Of a DNA stretch of 27,339 nt, positions 595 to 27,339 are shown in pieces. The notes under the pieces were generated by a model. The model was not told the DNA's origin and ran no database searches. It saw only the letters and a program-made list of their open reading frames with translations. This DNA is from a virus, in IMG/VR virus record IMGVR_UViG_3300008516_000110, positions 1-27,339 of that record; one strand, 5' to 3'. The translations under genes were made by a program, and so were the position numbers. Each line of letters opens with the position of its first letter. The first letter of the stretch is position 1.

Positions 595-1293
595 TTACGT
601 TTCCTGCGATTGTCTATGATCTTCAACCATTCTCGTTATTCCCAGTATGAATAGTAACAGGCCAATGCCCATTAACGGAAGCCCTATCCTGGGATCATAC
701 GATACCGAAGACGCCCCCCAGGTTATTATGGCGATCGAACAAATAACCCGAAGCCATGTCTTCTGCCATACTGCCAGGACGCATAAGAGAATGATGAAAA
801 GAAGCTGCAATACTGTCATATCGCCACCCCCTATGGTGATATTGAAGAACCCGCCGAAAGTGGCGGTATCGGTGTAGTCACTCATGTTGGCACCCCAGAT
901 TGAATCAGGATCAATGGTAGCTTCTACGGTAGCATTTACTGTGATATTGCCGGTGAATTCTTCTATAACATGAAGTTCCGTAGATCCATAACACGTAGGA
1001 TTGGATGATGTTACTTCGGCTACATATACGCCCAGTTCCGATGGCACGGTGAAGTCATATTCGTACAATCCTTCACTAGCAGTAATATAATCCATGCTAA
1101 CGCCGTCCAGTTCCTTGTTGCCGTCCGTATCCCATAGCGTTAGCAATACAGTTGCATTGTTAACAGGCGAGCCCGCCCCATCTAGCACCTGGGCGTAGAA
1201 CGTTGCATCTTCATCCGGGTAATAGTCCCCCGCCAGTACCACGGTAGGTACTAGAACTAGGATTATCGCCAGGACTACCAGTAAATATTTCAC
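595..1293 (-). CDS. Secreted Ig-like protein with C-terminal membrane segments
   Basis: The 232-residue product has a signal peptide (residues 1-21, ending VVLAG), a beta-rich ectodomain that reads like an Ig or carboxypeptidase-regulatory-like fold (about 25-112; AQVLDGAGSPVNNATVLLTL is typical of such folds), a linker, and three hydrophobic segments (about 160-176, 180-197 and 203-221). It has five N-x-S/T sequons. The start is a GTG at 1293 whose first bases overlap the TGA of the upstream gene (GTGA), preceded by GGGGATCAA. Signal peptide, ectodomain and clustered C-terminal helices recur in the 7442, 8536 and 10919 genes, suggesting a shared envelope architecture. It is probably a minor envelope or surface protein of the particle; an exact family is not recognised. 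Confidence 0.88.
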   Translation of the reverse strand: MKYLLVVLAIILVLVPTVVLAGDYYPDEDATFYAQVLDGAGSPVNNATVLLTLWDTDGNKELDGVSMDYITASEGLYEYDFTVPSELGVYVAEVTSSNPTCYGSTELHVIEEFTGNITVNATVEATIDPDSIWGANMSDYTDTATFGGFFNITIGGGDMTVLQLLFIILLCVLAVWQKTWLRVICSIAIITWGASSVSYDPRIGLPLMGIGLLLFILGITRMVEDHRQSQET

Positions 1294-3116
1294 TTGATCC
1301 CCAAAAGTTCCTTGATCTTGGCTACATCATTTTGTAGTGCTAAAATATCTTCCTGCTGCTGTGCTATCGTTGTTTGTTGTTCCTGGATTATAAGGTAAAG
1401 TTCTCTGATGCCCTGTTCGTTTTGGGATATTCTACCGCCCATGCTAATCCCGCTACACCCTGGGATAACATCGTTCTTTTCTTCTGAAGTTAAGGTGTTA
1501 TAGAATTCATACGGTGTTATGTCAGATGATTCAAACCGTTCCAACAGGTATTTGGGGAAGTCATAGCCAGTTACCTTCACACCTTCCATGAAAGTGTCAT
1601 AATCAGGTGCCATCTTACCGCCAGGTGGCAGTATTCCTTCATGCCGCATGATTTCCTCAAGGGCTGAACCGCTAACATTTTCATCCCAGTAATGCGTGTA
1701 TTCTATGACGTCATGGCAGTAAATATAGCCGTCAACTGTGCCACCACAACTACCCAATCCGTTATCAACACACAAGGCACCATCATAAATCTCCATATTA
1801 TTGTAATCATCAAAGTGGAATCTAACAGAACCGGTATTCTGAAAGTTCAAATCTCCATCTGAATCAACCCCTAGCTCCCACCCTTCAGTTCCACTCCATT
1901 CTTGTATCCCGATCGCTTCCCCCCCGGAATCTGTTTTAACGAACAATGGTTCTAGCGGGCTAGCGTGTCCAATGCCTACTCGATTGTATGCACCATCTAC
2001 AAAAAGAGTGATCCCATCTATTCTAACGTCGTCGTCCGGGCTGATATAAATGTCATCATCCGCTTCAAGGTATAAATCACCGGCAGATTCGTGTATCCTT
2101 GTATTATCATTCGCAAAAGAAATATCGCCCCCGGCAACTAGCAGTATATCCCCATCAACTCCTACCGTAAGCTTCGTGGCACCCGCATATTGAAGCCTAA
2201 ATAGGTTTGTTCCTGTCTGTGGTGCAGCAACATTTATTCTAAAGCCGGAGACTTCACTTGTGGTTGTTACTGTCAGAACCGGGGCCCTACCGTATAAATG
2301 AAGATCAGAAGCGGGGCTATCAGTTCCAATGCCTACATAGCCACTTGTGTCCATAACAAGCCCGTTGTTCCAAGTTACAGCGTCGCCAGCGGCTATACCA
2401 CTATCATACCTAAATTGTAATAAATCGCCAATCTTATAGATTTGGAAGTTAGAACCAACATCAGAACTCCTCCAAGCCCCATCATAATAGGCATCGAAAC
2501 TTAAACCTGAATTATCGTGGCCCCAATGAATTTGTTGAAATACGGGATAATCATCAGAATCTACGGTATACTGGATATGAGGACCAGCCGCACTGGCAGC
2601 AGGGCCCTCTATTGCAAACTTAGCATACCCAACTCCACCGTGAGGAATAGTTGATGTCCCAATGCCTACCTTGCCAGCGTCATCAATTACCATTACTTCC
2701 GAACCGGCGGTATCAAAGCGTAGTATATCTTCATCGGCCGATTCTTCCGTTTGAATGCCTGTGTCTGTATCTGCATCCCAAATTGCAGATACCGTGGCTA
2801 CAACATCTGTGGTTTCCCATTCCCCGGCTACATCATTCCAGGTTATCACTTGCCCATCCGTGGGGCTACCCGCATTAACATCGTCCAGATCATCCAGGGA
2901 TAGCACTAGAATATAGTCTACCCACATTGCCGCGGTCCCATTCCAAACCAGGAAGGCACCATTACCCGGGGAACTGGCGTCAACGTCCGTTAGATCGTCC
3001 AGGGCAGGATTAGGCCGGACAATCACAACGTCTTTGGCCAGTACCGGTATTGCCGATGCTAGTACCAGGCTTATCAGTAGTAACGCTATTGCTATAAAAT
3101 GCCATTTAATTCTCAT
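1290..3116 (-). CDS. Secreted tail-fibre-like / adhesin protein
   Basis: The 608-residue product has an N-terminal signal peptide (1-27) and no obvious membrane anchor. Two copies of the phage-fibre linker repeat occur near 38-66 and 73-101, the second reading LDDVNAGSPTDGQVITW. At least three VGIG motifs (VGIGTSTIP, VGIGTDSPASDLHLYG, VGIGHASP) follow, which mark beta-helical or trimeric tail-fibre shafts that sit upstream of intramolecular-chaperone regions. The C-terminus (about 565-605) is a Gln-rich coiled coil ending KIKELLGIK, suited to trimerisation. The ATG at 3116 overlaps the upstream TGA (ATGA). A fibre with a secretory signal is unusual for tailed phages, whose fibres assemble in the cytoplasm; it fits a particle assembled at the membrane. 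Receptor binding is inferred. Confidence 0.88.
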   Translation of the reverse strand: MRIKWHFIAIALLLISLVLASAIPVLAKDVVIVRPNPALDDLTDVDASSPGNGAFLVWNGTAAMWVDYILVLSLDDLDDVNAGSPTDGQVITWNDVAGEWETTDVVATVSAIWDADTDTGIQTEESADEDILRFDTAGSEVMVIDDAGKVGIGTSTIPHGGVGYAKFAIEGPAASAAGPHIQYTVDSDDYPVFQQIHWGHDNSGLSFDAYYDGAWRSSDVGSNFQIYKIGDLLQFRYDSGIAAGDAVTWNNGLVMDTSGYVGIGTDSPASDLHLYGRAPVLTVTTTSEVSGFRINVAAPQTGTNLFRLQYAGATKLTVGVDGDILLVAGGDISFANDNTRIHESAGDLYLEADDDIYISPDDDVRIDGITLFVDGAYNRVGIGHASPLEPLFVKTDSGGEAIGIQEWSGTEGWELGVDSDGDLNFQNTGSVRFHFDDYNNMEIYDGALCVDNGLGSCGGTVDGYIYCHDVIEYTHYWDENVSGSALEEIMRHEGILPPGGKMAPDYDTFMEGVKVTGYDFPKYLLERFESSDITPYEFYNTLTSEEKNDVIPGCSGISMGGRISQNEQGIRELYLIIQEQQTTIAQQQEDILALQNDVAKIKELLGIK

Positions 3117-4264
3117 ATCGTTTCACTCCCTGTCGGTATCGTTTCACCTTCTGTCGGTTTTGTTTCACCCCCTGTCGGTATTGGTTTGGCAATTTCGATC
3201 ACGTTCTGCCCGCGGTCTATTCTTGCCAGGTAACCCTTGCTGTCGGTTGCCAGTTTATCAAGGTTTCTGATAAGTTTTTCCACACCCTTCAGTTTTGTTC
3301 TTGTCAACTTGCCCATCCCCTTTTCGAGTTCGTGTATTGAAATCACCCACTTGTTAGGCTGATCCTCCAAGATCGCTTTGCTTCCCTGGGCAAAGTCTAT
3401 GAGATTGTTGCCCCAGGCACGGTATTCGGCCTTTAGCAACGTATTGAATTGCTCTATTTCCTTTTGTTCTAGGGCTAGGTTGTGTTCACCACTGGTATAC
3501 ATCTTCTTGTCGTCCATATCGAACACCATCTTCCCCCCAACTATTTCCACCTTCTTGGCCCACTGCCAGGGATCGAATATCTGATAGGTATTGTATAGCG
3601 GCCATAATTTGTGGGCCATGCCGATGGCTTCAGGCCATACCTTCCCCCGCCAACCGGTGAATATACCGCTATTATCCTTGCACTGGTAGAGGAAGTTAGT
3701 TCCCTTGTATACTTGGTGGTCCCTGCCCCATTCCGTCCAGTACGAATCCTGCGACCACACCATCAGATCAACCTTGTTCAATATGACAGTGGGCAAAGTC
3801 GGTGATTGTGTGTCCAATAAGACACGAAGGCCACGCTTACGCAACTGGCTTAAAAACTTTTCAACCATTATATTACTGGTACTCATGGCACGTTTCCGTT
3901 CAATCCAGGTGTCTACTTCGCCAATGCCAACCACGGCTTCTTGTAACGAACTGTCAAAACTCAATAGAAATTCCAGGTCCAGTGGTCGTGCCTTATTATC
4001 GCATCCTATTTTTTCGGGATATAGTTCGTAATTGGTAAAAACGTGAAGCCCTGCCTTCAGTGCCTTCAGTAACTTACGAGCCACCCTTACGGATTTGCCA
4101 CCACCCCGGGGACCTAACACCAGTTCAACGTATTCGCGGGGGAAGTAAGTACGTAGTCCTTCGGGCAACCCCACGGTTTCCTTTGTCATAGCTTCAAGGA
4201 AATCATCGGTTTCAACCGGTTCTTCATCGCTACGATCAATTACTGCTCTACTTGATTCATTCAT
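3113..4264 (-). CDS. Zot-like P-loop assembly/packaging ATPase
   Basis: The frame is open from 4354, but the ATG at 4264 is preferred because it follows AAAGGGGGAAG and overlaps the upstream stop by only 8 nt; this gives 383 residues. Walker A is GPRGGGKS (51-58). A Walker-B-like strand ends in acidic residues (EAVVGIGEVD, 109-118), followed by a conserved-looking arginine segment (ERKRAMS) and a sensor-like LLDTQSP (149-155). This order matches the Zot/gpI family, inner-membrane ATPases that drive extrusion of filamentous phages; related FtsK/HerA-type ATPases package DNA in other viruses. I see no clear C-terminal TM helix, unlike classic Zot. The C-terminus carries three 7-residue PTGxET-type repeats encoded by a 21-bp tandem repeat. 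It is the best candidate motor for particle assembly here. Confidence 0.85.
   Translation of the reverse strand: MNESSRAVIDRSDEEPVETDDFLEAMTKETVGLPEGLRTYFPREYVELVLGPRGGGKSVRVARKLLKALKAGLHVFTNYELYPEKIGCDNKARPLDLEFLLSFDSSLQEAVVGIGEVDTWIERKRAMSTSNIMVEKFLSQLRKRGLRVLLDTQSPTLPTVILNKVDLMVWSQDSYWTEWGRDHQVYKGTNFLYQCKDNSGIFTGWRGKVWPEAIGMAHKLWPLYNTYQIFDPWQWAKKVEIVGGKMVFDMDDKKMYTSGEHNLALEQKEIEQFNTLLKAEYRAWGNNLIDFAQGSKAILEDQPNKWVISIHELEKGMGKLTRTKLKGVEKLIRNLDKLATDSKGYLARIDRGQNVIEIAKPIPTGGETKPTEGETIPTGSETI
3121..3183 (-). repeat. Three 21-bp tandem repeats, each with a Shine-Dalgarno-like core
   Basis: Units at 3121-3141, 3142-3162 and 3163-3183 encode the PTGxET-type repeats at the end of the ATPase. On the minus strand each unit contains an SD-like core (GGGAGTGAAAC, GAAGGTGAAAC and GGGGGTGAAAC). 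The unit nearest 3116 is the ribosome binding site of the fibre gene. Confidence 0.85.
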
Positions 4265-4655
4265 CCGGTTGTCTATCTTCCCCCTTTGTTCCTCTTTTCG
4301 CCGGGTTAAGCAGTTGTTGCCCATTGTGCTGTGAAGGCATTGCTGTGGGGACAAGCATACGTGATAACCCCATTAGAAATTCATTCCTGGCGAACCCACC
4401 TTCACCTAGCCCTGCACCCATCATGTTGATTACGAATGCCTGGCCCTGGGGGTTATCCCCGATCAGGGTTGCCGCAAGTCCATAATACCCGCGTAGCTTT
4501 TCCTGAATTCGGGACCTGATAAGAGTTCCTGCCAAGGGTGCTAGTTTTTCAGCTTCCGATGGTAGGCGTATAAGTTCCTTTTCGGAACCCGAACCCCCGA
4601 GGGGGGCAAAGGTTCCCAGTTCATCTTGTTTTCCCCATCCTCTATTCACTGACAT
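4257..4655 (-). CDS. Unrecognised cytoplasmic protein upstream of the ATPase
   Basis: The 132-residue soluble protein has no signal peptide or convincing TM helix. Its middle (about 35-100) contains amphipathic helices and a Gly-rich stretch (MMGAGLGEGGFARNEFLMG); the tail is polar and Glu-rich. The ATG at 4655 has GAAAGGATACAACT in front of it. It overlaps the ATPase start by 8 nt, so the two are probably translationally coupled; a partner or adaptor of the ATPase is possible but unproven. I do not recognise a family. Confidence 0.8.
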   Translation of the reverse strand: MSVNRGWGKQDELGTFAPLGGSGSEKELIRLPSEAEKLAPLAGTLIRSRIQEKLRGYYGLAATLIGDNPQGQAFVINMMGAGLGEGGFARNEFLMGLSRMLVPTAMPSQHNGQQLLNPAKRGTKGEDRQPDE

Positions 4656-4667
4656 AGTTGTATCCTT

Positions 4668-5174
4668 TCATGCCATCGACATTACTATCAGGAAGATCAC
4701 GAATACACAGGCTACGATTGCTATTGTTGGCGTCATGATTTTTTTCGCCTGGTCTATCAGGGATGGTTTGGGCAGGGTTTCCAATTCGATTATCTTTTCA
4801 ATAGTCTGTGCCAGGGTAACGGCCAGGGAATACAATTCCATGGAAGACATACCCATTTCCCCTTCCTTCGGTCCGGGATCGGGGAAGGTAACAGGGCTAT
4901 ACCCGCCGTTGCCGGTGTTGACAGCAACATATACTGGTCGGCCGCTTTCATAGAATGTGTAGGGCCCATCCCCATCCGTTGTATTCTTTGTGCCTTCCTG
5001 TATTGCCTTAATATCTTTTGCGGCATCGGCACCTTCCAATATTTCAAAACCTGTTTTCTTGACCAGGTAGATTCTGCCTATAAGGGTATTGAGTTGTTCC
5101 CCGGCGGTAAGAACCGCTTTCTTCTTAACTTCCTTGGTTTCTGCCCTTGGGTCTTCCTTCGTTTTTACTGCCAT
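4668..5174 (-). CDS. Tail-anchored membrane protein
   Basis: The 168-residue protein has a charged, Lys-rich N-terminus, a polar domain (about 25-130) and one hydrophobic C-terminal helix (about 148-167, TPTIAIVACVFVIFLIVMSM), giving a tail-anchored topology with the bulk in the cytoplasm. The ATG at 5174 follows GGAAGGTGATAC, a near-ideal ribosome binding site. It forms a pair with the next gene upstream (5178-5642), which has the same soluble-domain plus C-terminal-TM design. Between the putative coat gene and the ATPase, these two may form a membrane assembly complex or minor virion proteins. The family is not recognised. Confidence 0.83.
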   Translation of the reverse strand: MAVKTKEDPRAETKEVKKKAVLTAGEQLNTLIGRIYLVKKTGFEILEGADAAKDIKAIQEGTKNTTDGDGPYTFYESGRPVYVAVNTGNGGYSPVTFPDPGPKEGEMGMSSMELYSLAVTLAQTIEKIIELETLPKPSLIDQAKKIMTPTIAIVACVFVIFLIVMSMA

Positions 5175-5177
5175 GTA

Positions 5178-5642
5178 TCACCTTCCAAATATTTTCTCAA
5201 ACAAACCAGTTTGCAGGGCGTATAGCAACCCCAAGAATATCACCCCCGCAACGGCTATTAGCAGGATTGTAGACATTTTATCGAAGCGGTCTAGTAAATC
5301 TAGCCGTTGAACTGCCTTGGAACATCCTTCGCTAATTGCCCCTTCCTTGATCTGATCCTTCTTATGTTCTACTTTCGCCCATGTTAGGGTGCTTAAACTA
5401 AACGGCCTGGCCATGTTTTCGTATAATAGGGTAGTCAAGCCCTGAAATTTCAGTTTCCCCCTTCTGAACCTGATGAAGTTCCCCATACATTGCGGGAAGG
5501 AATCGTATCCCAGTAGGTTCTTGGCGTCTAGCAGGAATGTCCCCGTTGATTCCAGGTTACGGTGCATCAGGTTTTTATCTTCACCAAGAACTATGCAGTG
5601 GATATTAAAACTTTCCTTGTTCTTCTTATTGAAAAATCCCAT
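5178..5642 (-). CDS. Tail-anchored membrane protein
   Basis: The 154-residue protein has an N-terminal soluble domain (about 1-110, with FNIHCIVLGEDKNLMHRN and later KLKFQGLTTLLYEN), a charged helix, and one TM helix (about 127-146, MSTILLIAVAGVIFLGLLYA) followed by a short basic tail. The ATG at 5642 is preceded by GGAG 8-9 nt upstream. It ends 3 nt before the start of the 4668-5174 gene. A perfect hairpin at 5683-5724 separates it from the coat-like gene upstream, so its expression may be stepped down relative to that gene. Function unknown. Confidence 0.82.
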   Translation of the reverse strand: MGFFNKKNKESFNIHCIVLGEDKNLMHRNLESTGTFLLDAKNLLGYDSFPQCMGNFIRFRRGKLKFQGLTTLLYENMARPFSLSTLTWAKVEHKKDQIKEGAISEGCSKAVQRLDLLDRFDKMSTILLIAVAGVIFLGLLYALQTGLFEKIFGR

Positions 5643-5753: not shown

Positions 5754-6251
5754 CTAGAATCTGCCGCGTACTGCCTTGAACCCGACCATGCCGGTTATGA
5801 AGGTAATACCCAGGACGTATAGTAATGGTACTAGTCCTAGGAACGCGGCCAAGCCGGTATATGAAGCTATGTCGGCACGGGCAAGCAGGGTGCTTGTTTG
5901 CGTAATGACCAGTGGAAGCATTATAACGGCCACAATTACCACAACGGTCGTAAGGATAGTACTCTTCACATCCATCGATTCGCCCCGGTAACCAATCCAA
6001 ATCAGTACACCGCCGAATAGAACCAGGCTGATCATCATCAGCAACGGGAACAGAGTAAGGATTGATTCACCGCCGGGATAAAGTGTCCAGTTAACGGCTG
6101 AAGCCCCACCGGTAAGCAACGGGCTTACGGTGTCCATGGCAATGCCCAACATGATCAGACCAACCACAATGGATATAACACCAAGTATGATCGTCTTCAG
6201 ATTGGCAGCACCACCACTCATGCCACCTACACCTTGTCCTTTTCTTGACAT
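5754..6251 (-). CDS. Four-TM protein with internal duplication; candidate major coat/membrane protein
   Basis: The 165-residue product is very hydrophobic, with TM helices near 19-38, 63-87, 97-117 and 133-155. The two halves align with each other: LKTIILGVISIVVGLIML (18-35) with VKSTILTTVVVIVAVIML (95-112), and a second helix ending IGYRG with one ending KAVRG. It is therefore a tandem duplication of a two-helix hairpin. Small hydrophobic helical-hairpin proteins are the major capsid proteins of spindle-shaped archaeal viruses and the membrane proteins of pleolipoviruses; filamentous coats are also short helices. The ATG at 6251 follows AAGGGGGTGTAAG. Its place second in the operon, followed by a hairpin, fits a highly expressed coat protein. 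Major-coat status is inferred. Confidence 0.82.
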   Translation of the reverse strand: MSRKGQGVGGMSGGAANLKTIILGVISIVVGLIMLGIAMDTVSPLLTGGASAVNWTLYPGGESILTLFPLLMMISLVLFGGVLIWIGYRGESMDVKSTILTTVVVIVAVIMLPLVITQTSTLLARADIASYTGLAAFLGLVPLLYVLGITFITGMVGFKAVRGRF

Positions 6252-6285
6252 TCTTACACCCCCTTAAATTGGTGTATGACTAAAT

Positions 6286-6335
6286 CCCTGTCGACCATCA
6301 GGGACGGTTTTAACCCGTTCCTTCTTGGAACGGTT
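6286..6335 (-). promoter_or_regulatory. Two small hairpins in the 92-nt gap before the coat-like gene
   Basis: One hairpin pairs CCCTG (6286-6290) with CAGGG (6299-6303). The other pairs CGTTCC (6316-6321) with GGAACG (6327-6332) and extends through a bulge to 6312 and 6335. They lie between the stop of the 6344 gene and the start of the 6251 gene. They may partly terminate transcription or shape the leader of the coat message. No T-tract is present. Confidence 0.45.
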
Positions 6336-6343
6336 GCACCCAA

Positions 6344-6793
6344 TTAACCACGCCGACTACTTTTGACCGACGAAAACATCGACCACAACCCCATAACAAA
6401 CAAGCCGACAACTAATAGAAATGGCATGACACGGTAGAAACCGGACACACCAACGAATTCCTGATGTTCTGTTCTAACGTAACTGATGGTAAGGATTCGC
6501 GATGCTGATGGTTCTAACCCCGTTACCAACACATCGTAATCATCTTCTTCATAGGAAAGCACCACCGGCGTATCGTTTCCGTTATCGGAAGAAGCTGTGA
6601 GATCGGTCAAGTCCTGATACCAGTGTTCAAACGATAGGGTTTCCGTGGTATTTGTCACCCCCGCCCCGGTTGAAACGCTAAAAGGTTCGGAATAATCTTC
6701 GGTTAGGGCATCGGAAGTTGTGGGAATTAGCATATAAACAATCAGGAAAAGCCCCACCACCATACAAACCACGGCCATCAGGACGTTTTTCAT
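6344..6793 (-). CDS. Two-TM protein with beta-rich ectodomain; paralogue-like partner of the coat protein
   Basis: The 149-residue protein has TM helices near 4-24 and 118-141 flanking an 85-90-residue polar domain with beta-strand character and two sequons (NTT, NDT). Its ends resemble one hairpin unit of the 5754-6251 protein: the first helix followed by IPTTSDAL resembles the helix followed by MDTVSPLL, and FYRVMPFLLVVGL resembles FLGLVPLLYVLGI. This suggests the same hairpin with a domain inserted in the loop. The ATG at 6793 has no Shine-Dalgarno; a TATA-like box lies 22-29 nt upstream, so the message is probably leaderless. As first gene of the minus arm it is probably an abundant envelope or coat component. 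Confidence 0.82.
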   Translation of the reverse strand: MKNVLMAVVCMVVGLFLIVYMLIPTTSDALTEDYSEPFSVSTGAGVTNTTETLSFEHWYQDLTDLTASSDNGNDTPVVLSYEEDDYDVLVTGLEPSASRILTISYVRTEHQEFVGVSGFYRVMPFLLVVGLFVMGLWSMFSSVKSSRRG

Positions 6794-14607: not shown

Positions 14608-14919
14608 ATGCCAAAGGTATTCAATAGGCGAATTGATAAAGTCCCAGTAGAAGCTATTTATGTTGGTCGACCGAGCAAGTGGGGGAATCCGTTTAGAATG
14701 ACTGATCCTCTATTATATGGCTTGCCAAAAGAAGAGAAGCGGCGATTGGTGGTAGCTGAATATCGTAAGTGGCTGCTAGGTGATACAAGTTTGATAAGGC
14801 AATGTGGCGAACCGCCAAATGTAGTTGAATTGGAAGGCAAGGATCTTGTATGTTGGTGTTCTCCCTTACCTTGTCATGCTAACGTGCTTTTAGAATTGGC
14901 TAATTGCTCAAAGTTATGA
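14608..14919 (+). CDS. DUF4326 family protein
   Basis: The 103-residue protein shows both hallmarks of DUF4326: an N-terminal IYVGRPSKWGNPF (17-29) and a C-terminal GKDLVCWCSPLPCHANVLLE (77-96). The family is widespread in phages and bacteria, is full length at about 100 residues and has no established function; the CWC..PCH cluster could bind metal. The ATG at 14608 follows AAGGGGGGATAGAGAA. It overlaps the nuclease-fold gene by 4 nt, suggesting joint expression. Confidence 0.85.
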   Translation: MPKVFNRRIDKVPVEAIYVGRPSKWGNPFRMTDPLLYGLPKEEKRRLVVAEYRKWLLGDTSLIRQCGEPPNVVELEGKDLVCWCSPLPCHANVLLELANCSKL

Positions 14920-15839
14920 AGGCAGAAGATTTAGTCAATTTAATAAGACGGAAATACCCGCTTGATAGACCGGATGGCCGTCAATCCCATGTGGTGTTAG
15001 AACAAGTGCCTGATGGGACAGGAACGTATCTTGGGCATTGGATAGATGCTGTGGTATTTAGCCTTTGGGCGTCAAAGGGGCTTACTAGGGCAGCCTTTGA
15101 AGTAAAGGTAACTCGATCTGACTTTATCAGTGAACTACAAAATCCACTAAAGCACAAATGGGCGTTAGATTGTTTCCACGAACTTTGGTTTGTTGCCCCC
15201 CAGGACGTAATTCAACTTGAAGAATTGCCACCTAACATCGGGTGGTTGTGTCCTCGCGGTAGCAAATTGGTCACCAAGCGACAGGCTGTGCGAAACCCTA
15301 ATCCTAAATTGGATGATGTTTTACTGGCAGCCTTTATGAGAGCAGCTTCTAAGGAAATCACCAAGGTAAGCCGCACTTCAGCCACGGATATACTTGAAAA
15401 CAGTGAGGAATATCGCAAAGCCAAAGTATATCAGGATGCAATAACGCAATTTATAAATCAACGGGGCAATACAGAATGGTTGGATCCCAAAACCACAGAC
15501 GACGTAATTAAATGGCTAGACGATGCTACGATGGACAAACAGTTGAAGCAAGATAGAGAACATTTGATTGGAATTGCATCCCATTTCCAAAGGGAAATCG
15601 TAAGTATGCTAAACCTATTTTTAATCATAGCCAATAAGAGTTTAATAGCTCGGGATAACCTGGGCAAACATATCGTTAGTGCTTATGGCGGCCATGATGA
15701 TGATTCTATTGAAATGCTGAAAGGATTGGCCCAAGATTCGAAGGCCCTTGATATACAAAGGCGATATGCTGAAACAGTAGAGTTAATAGTGAATTGGGAT
15801 AGGGAATTTAAGGAAAAAGTCATTGAAAGTAGATTATAG
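14916..15839 (+). CDS. MmcB-like PD-(D/E)XK nuclease-fold protein
   Basis: The ATG at 14916 overlaps the previous TGA (ATGA), giving 307 residues. The N-terminal 125 residues contain the restriction-endonuclease-fold core: an acidic residue in WIDAVVF (D44), then AAFEVKVTRSDF with the E-x-K pair at E62 and K64, and a downstream WFVAPQDVI strand. This matches MmcB-family DNA-repair-associated proteins and related phage nucleases. The remaining 180 residues are helical and not recognised; they include a LysM-free, charged region ending KEKVIESRL. It may repair, process or cut DNA; the active-site residues appear intact. Confidence 0.75.
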   Translation: MKAEDLVNLIRRKYPLDRPDGRQSHVVLEQVPDGTGTYLGHWIDAVVFSLWASKGLTRAAFEVKVTRSDFISELQNPLKHKWALDCFHELWFVAPQDVIQLEELPPNIGWLCPRGSKLVTKRQAVRNPNPKLDDVLLAAFMRAASKEITKVSRTSATDILENSEEYRKAKVYQDAITQFINQRGNTEWLDPKTTDDVIKWLDDATMDKQLKQDREHLIGIASHFQREIVSMLNLFLIIANKSLIARDNLGKHIVSAYGGHDDDSIEMLKGLAQDSKALDIQRRYAETVELIVNWDREFKEKVIESRL

Positions 15840-24105: not shown

Positions 24106-24603
24106 ATGACTAGACAACCAAGGCGATGGGTAAAGCTATATTGTTATGAACGATTGCACGGTAGCGTGAGTTACCAGTTAACCGAAGCGGAACAGTCGAT
24201 ATGGGATAAGTTACTATGCCTGGCCGGACTTTGTGGCAACGATGGCATTATTGCCGACCACGACTTACGCCCGTACCCCCGGGAATTCGTAATTCACGAA
24301 CTCCATGCCGATCCCGAGGTATTTGAAACGACCATGCAGAAATGTATAGACGAAGGGCGAATAACTGAAGATGGGCAGGGCATCCGTATCACCAACTGGA
24401 ACAAATATCAATCAGAATATGATAGGCAGAAGCAATACAGGGATAAAAGGGATCCCCACTTATATGTTGGGCCAGGCCGGGCAGAACAAATAAAAGCTAG
24501 TGTTGAAGCCGTCAATACTGAAGAACATATGAAAGCCTGGGAAGATGCCCACCCAGGCAAAACGCATCCGGCAAGGGAACTCCAAAAAAGGACGGAGGTT
24601 TAG
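24106..24603 (+). CDS. Replisome-organiser/DnaD-like replication protein
   Basis: The 165-residue protein (ATG after AGGGGGATAGT) resembles the N-terminal winged-helix domain of phage replisome organisers: RRWVKLYCYERLHGSVSYQL, then a helix with SIWDKLLCLAGLCGNDGII, an EVFETTMQKCIDEGRI helix, and the strand-turn IRITNWNKYQ followed by a charged YDRQKQYRDKR. Such proteins bind origin iterons and recruit the host helicase. It lacks the C-terminal DnaB-tail region. It lies directly downstream of the iteron region, which supports origin binding. Its TAG stop overlaps the stop of the converging giant gene by 4 nt. Assignment is by pattern only. Confidence 0.65.
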   Translation: MTRQPRRWVKLYCYERLHGSVSYQLTEAEQSIWDKLLCLAGLCGNDGIIADHDLRPYPREFVIHELHADPEVFETTMQKCIDEGRITEDGQGIRITNWNKYQSEYDRQKQYRDKRDPHLYVGPGRAEQIKASVEAVNTEEHMKAWEDAHPGKTHPARELQKRTEV

Positions 24604-27339
24604 CGTTGCCTTCTGCCGTTAGTCCTACGCCTTTTGCCGTTAGTTCTACGCCTTACGAACGATAGCGTCCGCCCGTGCTTGATCCGTGCAGTGGTAACCC
24701 CCATAGGTACTTCTATTAGGGGCGGGATTCTGCCCATTGCTCGAAGCGTTCGCATTGGTGCCCTTCTACCCTTCGCAATCAGGGACGCATAACGTGGGCG
24801 TTTCCTAGAATATACAACATCCGCACCCGCCTTTCCCCCCTTCTTGGTTCGGAACGGGGGGAATACGCTAACCCAGTATAGCCCTTGCTTCCAGGTCGCT
24901 AGTGCAGGACCTTTGCGTATAGCTTGCTTCTCTGATTTTATTTCACCCTTGCCAAGCCGTGACCTTGTTATCTTTGTTGGCTTGAATAGCCGTTCTATAC
25001 GTTCTAGCCGTTCTAACCGTTCTAGCCGTTCTAACCGTTCTAACCGTTCGCCCCGTTCTGCCCGTTCGCCCCGTGCTGCCCTGTCGGTACGCACTGCCCT
25101 GTCGGTACGCACTGCCCTGTCGGTACGTGCTGCCCTGTCGGTACGTGCTGCCCTGTCGGTACGTGCTGCCCTGTCTTCCCTTCTTGCCCTGGTTGCTACC
25201 TGGGTTCTGGCCGCTACCCGTTGTGCTGCCCTTGTTGTCCTTGCTCTACCAGTTAACAATATGGGTGTACCCTGCCTGGCCCTGAACCCTGCCCGAGTTC
25301 CACCCAGTACCCTTATTCCTGATCGTGCCACTGCTGCTGACAAACGCCGACCGCTACGTGATAGTTCGTATGCCCTTTGTAAGCCCTTTGCTACGTCGAC
25401 ATTTTCGGTAGCTTTGAGTATACGAGCCAATTCATCTATTTGCGTCTTGTTTAGCCCCTTTGTTACAGACTTAATCTTCAGGGGTGTTCTGAATGGTTGC
25501 CTGAATACTTCGGCAATGCCTTCAAGTTTTAGCCTGGCAATTTGCCTTGCCTTTAGCGGCCGATCAAGCCATATTTCAACCCTTATAGCTTCAGGCCCAA
25601 TGTATGTATAGAGCTTCTGCACCGGTGGACTGATCTTTGTTCCTACTGCAAACTTGGCTTCTATTTCTGCTGCACCGCGATAGGACTTGCCGGTTGCAAT
25701 GATTTCCTTGGCCTTATCAGGGCTAATGATACGGAACACGGGCTTGTACGCTTCCACCGTTTGCTGTAAAACATCGGCAGCTTTTACGTTGCCGCTACCT
25801 TTCAGAGCATCTACTAGCCGTGCAACCTTCTTGCTACTTAAAGCGCTTATCTTTTCCGGGTCGCCAATCAGCTTGGCCTTTGTAAGGGATCTATATACGT
25901 CTGTGGGTAGTCTACTATCCAGGTTGATGTGAACGATCTGATTGTACCCGATCTTTGTTTTAACCATTTCCCGGCCGGCCCCGGCCGGTCTGATTTCAAT
26001 GGGCAGATTGAAGGCAGTTTGGTTGGCGAACCGGGGTAGTGGTTCGTGGGCTACGAATAGCCCTTGTTCGGTTATACCCACGCCTGGTTTCCCCTTCACT
26101 ACCATTGGTTTTCTGAAAGTGCCACCCCAGGGTGTGGTGTGTACCACCCCACCTTTAACTTCCCTCATTAAAGGTGCTGTATTCAACTGCAATTCGGCCA
26201 CAACCTTGCCCGCCTTGTTCCTTAATTGCACTATCGGGGTATCACCCGAAGCGGCCAGTTTCATTAGCTTGTCACGGGCCCGTAGGAAGTCGTCGGCACT
26301 GGAAGCTGATGTTAGCTTTAGTCGCACAGTTGATTGGGTAGTGCTTAACACTACGTCGGGAATCTTCTTCCAATCCCCTATGTTAGTAACGAAGCTACGT
26401 AAGTCTTTGAGCCCTTGTTTGGTTGTAGCGATAGGATGCATTAAGGTTGTTATTGGCCCCTTCGCCATAGCAATCAATTCTTTGCCAACACCTTTAGCAG
26501 CCCCAATAACCCTGGCACCCCTAGTTATACTGATAGCACCCCGAGCCCCCCTTACTGCACTAGCAGCCATTGGCAATATGAACAGGGCAATGTCTGCCGC
26601 TACCCAACCTATGCGTTCACCCAGGGATAGGTTATCCCAGTTCCTTGATACATAGAAGAAGGGAACTAGAACATCCCCCGCTATCAATCCCACATCTTTT
26701 GATGTGATGCCAGTTTTCTGATCCTGTGTTGGTTCGTACTTCATGGCCCTTTCAATAGCATCTTCAGTGAACAGATCTCCGGCTTGCGTCTTGGTGATTT
26801 TACCTTCGTGCAGTGCTTCCGCTAACCTGTATCCTTCGTCGGTTTTATAGGGTTTGAGGGCTTCGAGGGTATCCGATACATTCACTGCCCAGTTGTAAGT
26901 GTCTTCACCGAATATTTCCTTCAGTGGGGCATTCGGTATGTGCCTGTCCTGGACGATAGCCAATACATCGTAGTTGCCTTCCTTATCCTTGTAATGATCC
27001 AGGGTAAGGTATAATCCCCTTTGGCTAATAGCCCGATTCACGGCATCGTTATTGAATATTTCTTTTAGTACCCGGGGCTTAATATCATCTAGCATCCTAA
27101 CAAGGTCCAAGCCGTCACCGGCTATGTATTCGTTGTTCCACTTGCTGCCTTTGTCCGTTAAGTAGTCCTTTGCCATCCTTTGATTGTCGTTAAGTCCCAA
27201 TACGTCCGCATCCTTGGCGTTGGGTGTATCATCGGTGATTCCCTTGATCTTCCTGCCGATGCTAAAGATTTTGTATCCCGCCGCTTCAACTTTATCTTCG
27301 GCGGCCTGTATTGTGAATGCTTCAACGGTGAGTATGGTT
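24600..27339 (-). CDS. Giant basic repeat protein, main part (continues across the junction to 575)
   Basis: This encodes the last 880 or so of 1,071 residues; the frame is open to the window edge and joins 1-575. About 248-263, 296-311 and 344-358 hold three degenerate copies of an LKEIFxxDxxNxAV-like unit. About 374-389 and 401-420 are hydrophobic and could span or insert in a membrane (LVPFFYVS; AADIALFILPMAASAV). About 420-870 is a long mixed domain. About 875-945 is low-complexity: RAARTD/RAVRTD hexapeptides, then RLE tripeptides. The C-terminal 120 residues are Arg/Lys-rich with an ordered core (WKQGLYWVSVFPPFRTKKGG, then LIEVPMGVTTARI) and end in RRRTNGKRRRTNGRRQR. The family is not recognised. 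A large structural protein contacting both membrane and DNA, or a polymorphic virion protein, is the best inference. Confidence 0.88.
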   Translation of the reverse strand, partial: TILTVEAFTIQAAEDKVEAAGYKIFSIGRKIKGITDDTPNAKDADVLGLNDNQRMAKDYLTDKGSKWNNEYIAGDGLDLVRMLDDIKPRVLKEIFNNDAVNRAISQRGLYLTLDHYKDKEGNYDVLAIVQDRHIPNAPLKEIFGEDTYNWAVNVSDTLEALKPYKTDEGYRLAEALHEGKITKTQAGDLFTEDAIERAMKYEPTQDQKTGITSKDVGLIAGDVLVPFFYVSRNWDNLSLGERIGWVAADIALFILPMAASAVRGARGAISITRGARVIGAAKGVGKELIAMAKGPITTLMHPIATTKQGLKDLRSFVTNIGDWKKIPDVVLSTTQSTVRLKLTSASSADDFLRARDKLMKLAASGDTPIVQLRNKAGKVVAELQLNTAPLMREVKGGVVHTTPWGGTFRKPMVVKGKPGVGITEQGLFVAHEPLPRFANQTAFNLPIEIRPAGAGREMVKTKIGYNQIVHINLDSRLPTDVYRSLTKAKLIGDPEKISALSSKKVARLVDALKGSGNVKAADVLQQTVEAYKPVFRIISPDKAKEIIATGKSYRGAAEIEAKFAVGTKISPPVQKLYTYIGPEAIRVEIWLDRPLKARQIARLKLEGIAEVFRQPFRTPLKIKSVTKGLNKTQIDELARILKATENVDVAKGLQRAYELSRSGRRLSAAVARSGIRVLGGTRAGFRARQGTPILLTGRARTTRAAQRVAARTQVATRARREDRAARTDRAARTDRAARTDRAVRTDRAVRTDRAARGERAERGERLERLERLERLERLERIERLFKPTKITRSRLGKGEIKSEKQAIRKGPALATWKQGLYWVSVFPPFRTKKGGKAGADVVYSRKRPRYASLIAKGRRAPMRTLRAMGRIPPLIEVPMGVTTARIKHGRTLSFVRRRTNGKRRRTNGRRQR
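24985..25170 (-). repeat. 9-bp and 18-bp tandem repeats in the giant gene
   Basis: An 18-bp unit (core GTGCTGCCCTGTCGGTAC on the plus strand) repeats about five times around 25075-25170, encoding RAARTD/RAVRTD. A 9-bp unit (CGTTCTAAC or CGTTCTAGC) repeats about six times around 24995-25050, encoding RLE. Copies are nearly identical, so expansion is recent and the copy number is probably variable and hard to assemble. Confidence 0.88.
27241..27339. repeat. Terminal direct repeat, right copy (circular overlap)
   Basis: This is identical to bases 1-99. It should be removed when the circle is closed. A 99-base overlap equals a k-mer size used by common short-read assemblers, which supports an assembly origin (inference). 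Confidence 0.93.

Follow-up and report, generated by a model that had tools for sequence, protein, structure and literature searches.

The open reading frame at positions 5754-6251 (minus strand) raises the question of whether a coat protein of a spindle-type virus may carry two copies of its helical hairpin in one chain. It lies in a stretch of DNA of 27,339 nucleotides, referred to here as the window, which comes from a virus record of IMG/VR. The two ends of the window form a perfect 99-base direct repeat (1-99 = 27241-27339), and therefore the virus genome is very likely a complete circle of about 27.2 kb. An earlier reading of the sequence alone had proposed that this frame encodes a coat candidate formed by internal duplication of a two-helix hairpin, and its coordinates are correct; the gene starts with the ATG at 6251 and encodes 165 aa. 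The reading that we prefer, with a probability of roughly two in three, is that a spindle-type virus, probably of an archaeon, has this protein as its major coat protein, and that the ancestral hairpin of two membrane helices (VP1/His1 type) was duplicated in tandem within the gene. Two conserved proteins, each with a single C-terminal membrane helix, are encoded downstream of the gene on the same strand (154 aa, 5178-5642; 168 aa, 4668-5174), and the same minus-strand block contains a P-loop ATPase resembling Zot/protein I (3113-4354; Pfam Zot, E 0.007; PHROG 20922, E 4e-4).

The internal repeat is borne out at the sequence level. The two halves of about 75 residues each align collinearly with one 4-residue gap; half A, or the first hairpin, spans residues 16-92 (5976-6206, minus) and half B, the second hairpin, residues 93-165 (5757-5975, minus). 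Their sizes, 77 and 73 aa, correspond to the length of mature VP1 and of His1 VP21 (73 aa), as had been claimed for a single spindle-virus-type capsid protein. The helix starts match as proposed (LKTIIL, residues 18-23; VKSTIL, residues 95-100). The proposed agreement of the half ends exists in the window (GYRG and KAVRG) but is weaker than had been stated, the corresponding ends being GYKG and KSVRS in one close relative and GYKG and RAVRS in the other. When the two halves are aligned to each other, the BLOSUM62 local score is 76, above all shuffles (mean 32, z 7.9) including those preserving the hydrophobic pattern (mean 34.5, z 6.3), and none of 2000 shuffles reached this value. Because membrane helices all resemble one another, a natural null was added, consisting of 200 two-helix membrane segments taken from other ORFs of all loci; the trimmed halves score 72, and the maximum among these segments is 57. 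The repeat is kept in both close relatives. Homologues lacking it, which would have counted against the duplication had they been close, are found only among the distant VP1 and VP3 of the SSVs and His1 VP21, single-hairpin coats of the kind that a duplication predicts.

The assignment to the spindle-virus type of capsid protein, also made by the sequence-only reading, is supported by matches to the fusellovirus VP1 profile in both halves, each taken by itself. The PHROG profile of this major capsid protein was run over whole genomes in six frames with a limit of E ≤ 1. In the window it gives exactly two matches, back to back in one ORF (5769-5987 and 5997-6212), with genome-wide E-values of 0.006 for half A (profile positions 65-132) and 4.5e-6 for half B (positions 63-135). 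Two adjacent matches in one ORF are likewise found in each of the two relatives, while His1 gives one match, to its ORF21/VP21 capsid gene, SSV19 gives two in the separate VP1 and VP3 genes, and the STSV1 genome gives none. At the same limit the profile also matches 4 of 14 large control genomes, and therefore a single weak match means little; matches of that kind do not explain adjacent pairs within a single ORF in each of three genomes. Searches in the other direction agree. With the whole coat protein as query, the PDB yields SSV19 VP1 (7xdi_A, E 5e-4, via the second half) and the PHROGs yield family 11172, annotated as virion structural protein (E 9.5e-5). The latter is also matched by half B alone (E 6.5e-4) and, marginally, by half A alone (E 0.11), for which it is the sole family matched among 38,880. 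Profiles of either half, run over 722 ORFs, rank the VP1/VP3 genes at the top after the tandem proteins themselves. Neither the window nor its relatives contain a match to the His1 capsid family (PF25665) at E ≤ 1. When the ATPase and the coat protein of the window were compared by tblastn with phage records including about 60 fuselloviruses, no match was obtained, and of the fusellovirus families, whose shared core genes include the D355 integrase, the B251 ATPase and VP4, PHROG scans of 20 window proteins identified VP1/VP3 alone.

The coat protein shares with fusellovirus VP1 (SSV1, SSV19; PDB 7xdi) and VP3 the predicted two-helix hydrophobic hairpin of about 73 aa, the VPLxY motif with which the second helix begins and the adjacency of coat genes, at about 20-30% identity. 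In fuselloviruses VP1 and VP3 are separate genes, whereas the two hairpins of the window virus are in one chain. The window protein carries an N-terminal Gly-rich stretch where VP1 has a cleaved leader, and the turn of half A contains an N-W-T sequon (residues 54-56; 6084-6092, minus), kept in all three viruses, just as VP1 turns carry N-X-S/T; the turn of half B has no sequon. VP21 of His1 (Halspiviridae, PF25665) has the same hairpin and is matched by the VP1 profile, but it is a single copy, unlike the tandem. The host, as judged from this coat type, is probably an archaeon; scans of the relatives and of genome contigs gave no host link.

The search for relatives yielded two IMG/VR contigs, L002 and L003, and no others. 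Searches of viral contigs with the coat protein (both alone and aligned), the ATPase, the 194-, 168- and 154-aa proteins, VP1, and VP1 combined with half B recovered only these two and fuselloviruses, and scans of genome contigs and tblastn against phage records gave no further relatives. Identity of the coat protein to its counterparts is 85% and 81%, higher than for any other gene compared in the three viruses; the six others range from 49 to 66% (63/62% for the ATPase and 66/58, 62/65, 58/56, 58/54 and 49/51% for the rest). In both halves pN is 0.04-0.13 against pS of 0.54-0.80, which shows strong purifying selection on each, and half A is more conserved than half B. This conservation and the low pN make it very unlikely that an assembly error or a recent accident lies behind the tandem.

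AlphaFold2 with 17 sequences predicts four long helices in two hairpins with low confidence (mean pLDDT 62; 54 with three sequences). The predicted helices comprise residues 18-48 (6108-6200), 62-88 (5988-6068), 95-125 (5877-5969) and 132-162 (5766-5858), all on the minus strand, and the fourth contains VPLLYVL, corresponding to the VP1 signature VPLFYIL. Foldseek/VIA-align searches of the models (pLDDT 54 and 62) against PDB and BFVD returned generic helical bundles only and no capsid protein, an outcome that counts neither for nor against the coat reading. The hairpins of spindle viruses are taken to have the turn outward and the ends inward in the shell, as described for relatives (PMC10866085). 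If each half is one such hairpin, its ends would point toward the virion interior and its turn would lie outside. The two predicted helices per repeat put both ends of the repeat on one side, so that the 6-residue linker RGESMD (residues 89-94; 5970-5987, minus; KGQQMD and KGTQMD in the relatives) would suffice to connect the halves. With the chain remaining uncut, this short inner linker would connect adjacent hairpins, which in SSV19 belong to different molecules, without altering the shell, and the coat lattice would consist of covalent pairs of unlike hairpins occupying two unlike positions.

Whether the chain does stay uncut bears on the maturation of VP1. The N-terminal part of SSV1 VP1 is removed by a cut in front of a conserved glutamate, which follows K/R and G/A (PMC5748691). 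The junction of the two halves aligns exactly with this point, the mature N-terminus of all SSV VP1 with its (K/R)(G/A)|E pattern, and reads RG|ES in the window and KG|QQ and KG|TQ in the relatives. A polyprotein precursor might thus be cut at the junction in the manner of SSV1 VP1 to give two single-hairpin coat proteins in a 1:1 ratio, and the absence of the glutamate from the relatives need not prevent this, since SSV1 with the E66Q substitution in VP1 still yields infectious virus (PMC5748691). However, where the window has the maturation-site glutamate, a feature of the Fuselloviridae, its relatives have Q and T; a membrane hairpin would in any case be expected to carry basic residues at its inner end, and in the window proteins covered by the Pfam and PHROG scans no protease was recognised. 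We regard such processing as unlikely, and the uncleaved pair is favoured because the key glutamate is not conserved in the relatives.

The origin of the tandem was addressed with a tree of half A, half B, VP1, VP3 and His1 VP21, based on 75 columns and with long branches. Half A groups with half B (support 82/64) and VP1 with VP3, and therefore the tandem looks like a separate duplication. The alternative is that pre-existing paralogous genes of VP3 type and VP1 type were fused; VP1 adjoins VP3 in fuselloviruses, half B is nearest to VP1, and with hhalign half A gives a slightly better alignment to VP3. In the tree, however, forced groupings of half B with VP1 and of half A with VP3 are marginally rejected (AU p 0.041 and 0.048; about 75 columns, hence weak), and half A is scored higher by the VP1 profile than by the VP3 profile. 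The fusion of two genes is accordingly judged improbable, and a duplication within this lineage, independent of the fusellovirus VP1/VP3 pair, is weakly favoured by the tree. A further reading, in which the gene encodes a common type of membrane protein with four helices (a holin, a transporter fragment or the like) and the halves are alike as all membrane helices are, would suit the high hydrophobicity of the protein, weak Pfam matches to unrelated membrane families and a low-confidence model that looks like generic helical bundles, but this reading is already disfavoured and very improbable, as the repeat score exceeds that of the natural membrane segments, the half profiles place VP1/VP3 genes first and the VP1 profile matches the tandem ORF only, and twice, in each genome.

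Immediately upstream of the tandem coat gene lies the gene for a 149-aa membrane protein (6344-6793, minus), a candidate second coat protein. Its single pair of helices is interrupted by an insertion of about 90 residues in place of a short turn. Its homologues are matched weakly by the profile of half B (16.3 bits, in L002) and by that of VP3 (16.0 bits, in L003), and a combined profile of VP1 and half B gives E 0.0035 in the L002 contig. These similarities suggest that the neighbour is probably a second, decorated single-hairpin coat protein beside the tandem one; a second VP1-like gene would then adjoin the tandem coat gene, as VP3 adjoins VP1 in SSVs, and its product could be a minor coat protein with the role of VP3 in SSV1. 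The two genes are separated by a structured leader (6252-6343, minus) with two conserved stem-loops and a strong ribosome-binding site, which has homologues at 6205-6304 in L002 and 7848-7946 in L003. An invariant GGTCGA loop is flanked by CCCTG/CAGGG, and compensatory changes occur at two pairs; Rfam gave no credible match for this RNA. The proportion in which the two coat proteins are made may depend on this leader. The full model, in which the shell is made of covalent hairpin pairs (or an obligate 1:1 unlike pair) together with an externally decorated single-hairpin partner encoded adjacently, in a new virus family whose tandem arose independently of VP1/VP3, is put forward tentatively, at somewhat less than even odds.

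The earlier description of a tandem-fused coat subunit as an unusual building block holds, with one precedent on record. A contig of the Candidatus Odinarchaeum LCB_4 assembly encodes a tandem-duplicated His1-like capsid protein (Tamarit et al. 2022, PMC9246712, Extended Data Fig. 3 legend); the idea of a tandem in one protein is the same, but that protein is His1-like and not VP1-like, and the two are likened here by description only. The dual-MCP spindle viruses of ANME-1 (Itzamnaviridae) have two coexisting MCP genes, and the text of that paper mentions no fusion (PMC9894754); they share with the window virus two divergent coat hairpins per virus, but theirs are described as two genes. Beyond PMC9246712, no other tandem-fused spindle coat is mentioned in the searchable papers, which cover few subscription journals. 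The tandem coat idea is thus not categorically new, while the virus group is otherwise unrepresented in the collections searched. A central problem for spindle-shaped viruses is how hairpin coat proteins can make a shell that changes its diameter. In a fused pair the chain itself determines which hairpins lie side by side, and the lattice has two unlike positions, which constrains packing models; the shell may consist of fused pairs rather than single hairpins. Fusellovirus VP1/VP3, the window tandem and the His1-like tandem near Odinarchaeum point to more than one duplication of the hairpin, apparently on independent occasions, which is comparable to the history of single and double jelly-rolls in other capsid proteins.

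Several other features of these genomes were observed. A replication gene of the phage replisome-organiser/DnaD type (24106-24603, plus) belongs to a family known from bacterial phages and offers a lead on the host or on gene exchange. An 866-aa protein (24600-27200, minus) contains a low-complexity region in which RAARTDRAARTDR and RLERLERLER units recur, and a DNA repeat lies within its gene at 25000-25193. A C-terminal two-helix membrane anchor (LWKxGWIRxILSxCxIxWGAF...) is common to surface proteins encoded at 598-1293 (minus) in the window and at 11116-14922 in L003, and the latter contig also has a stand-alone 82-aa copy of this anchor (14886-15134).
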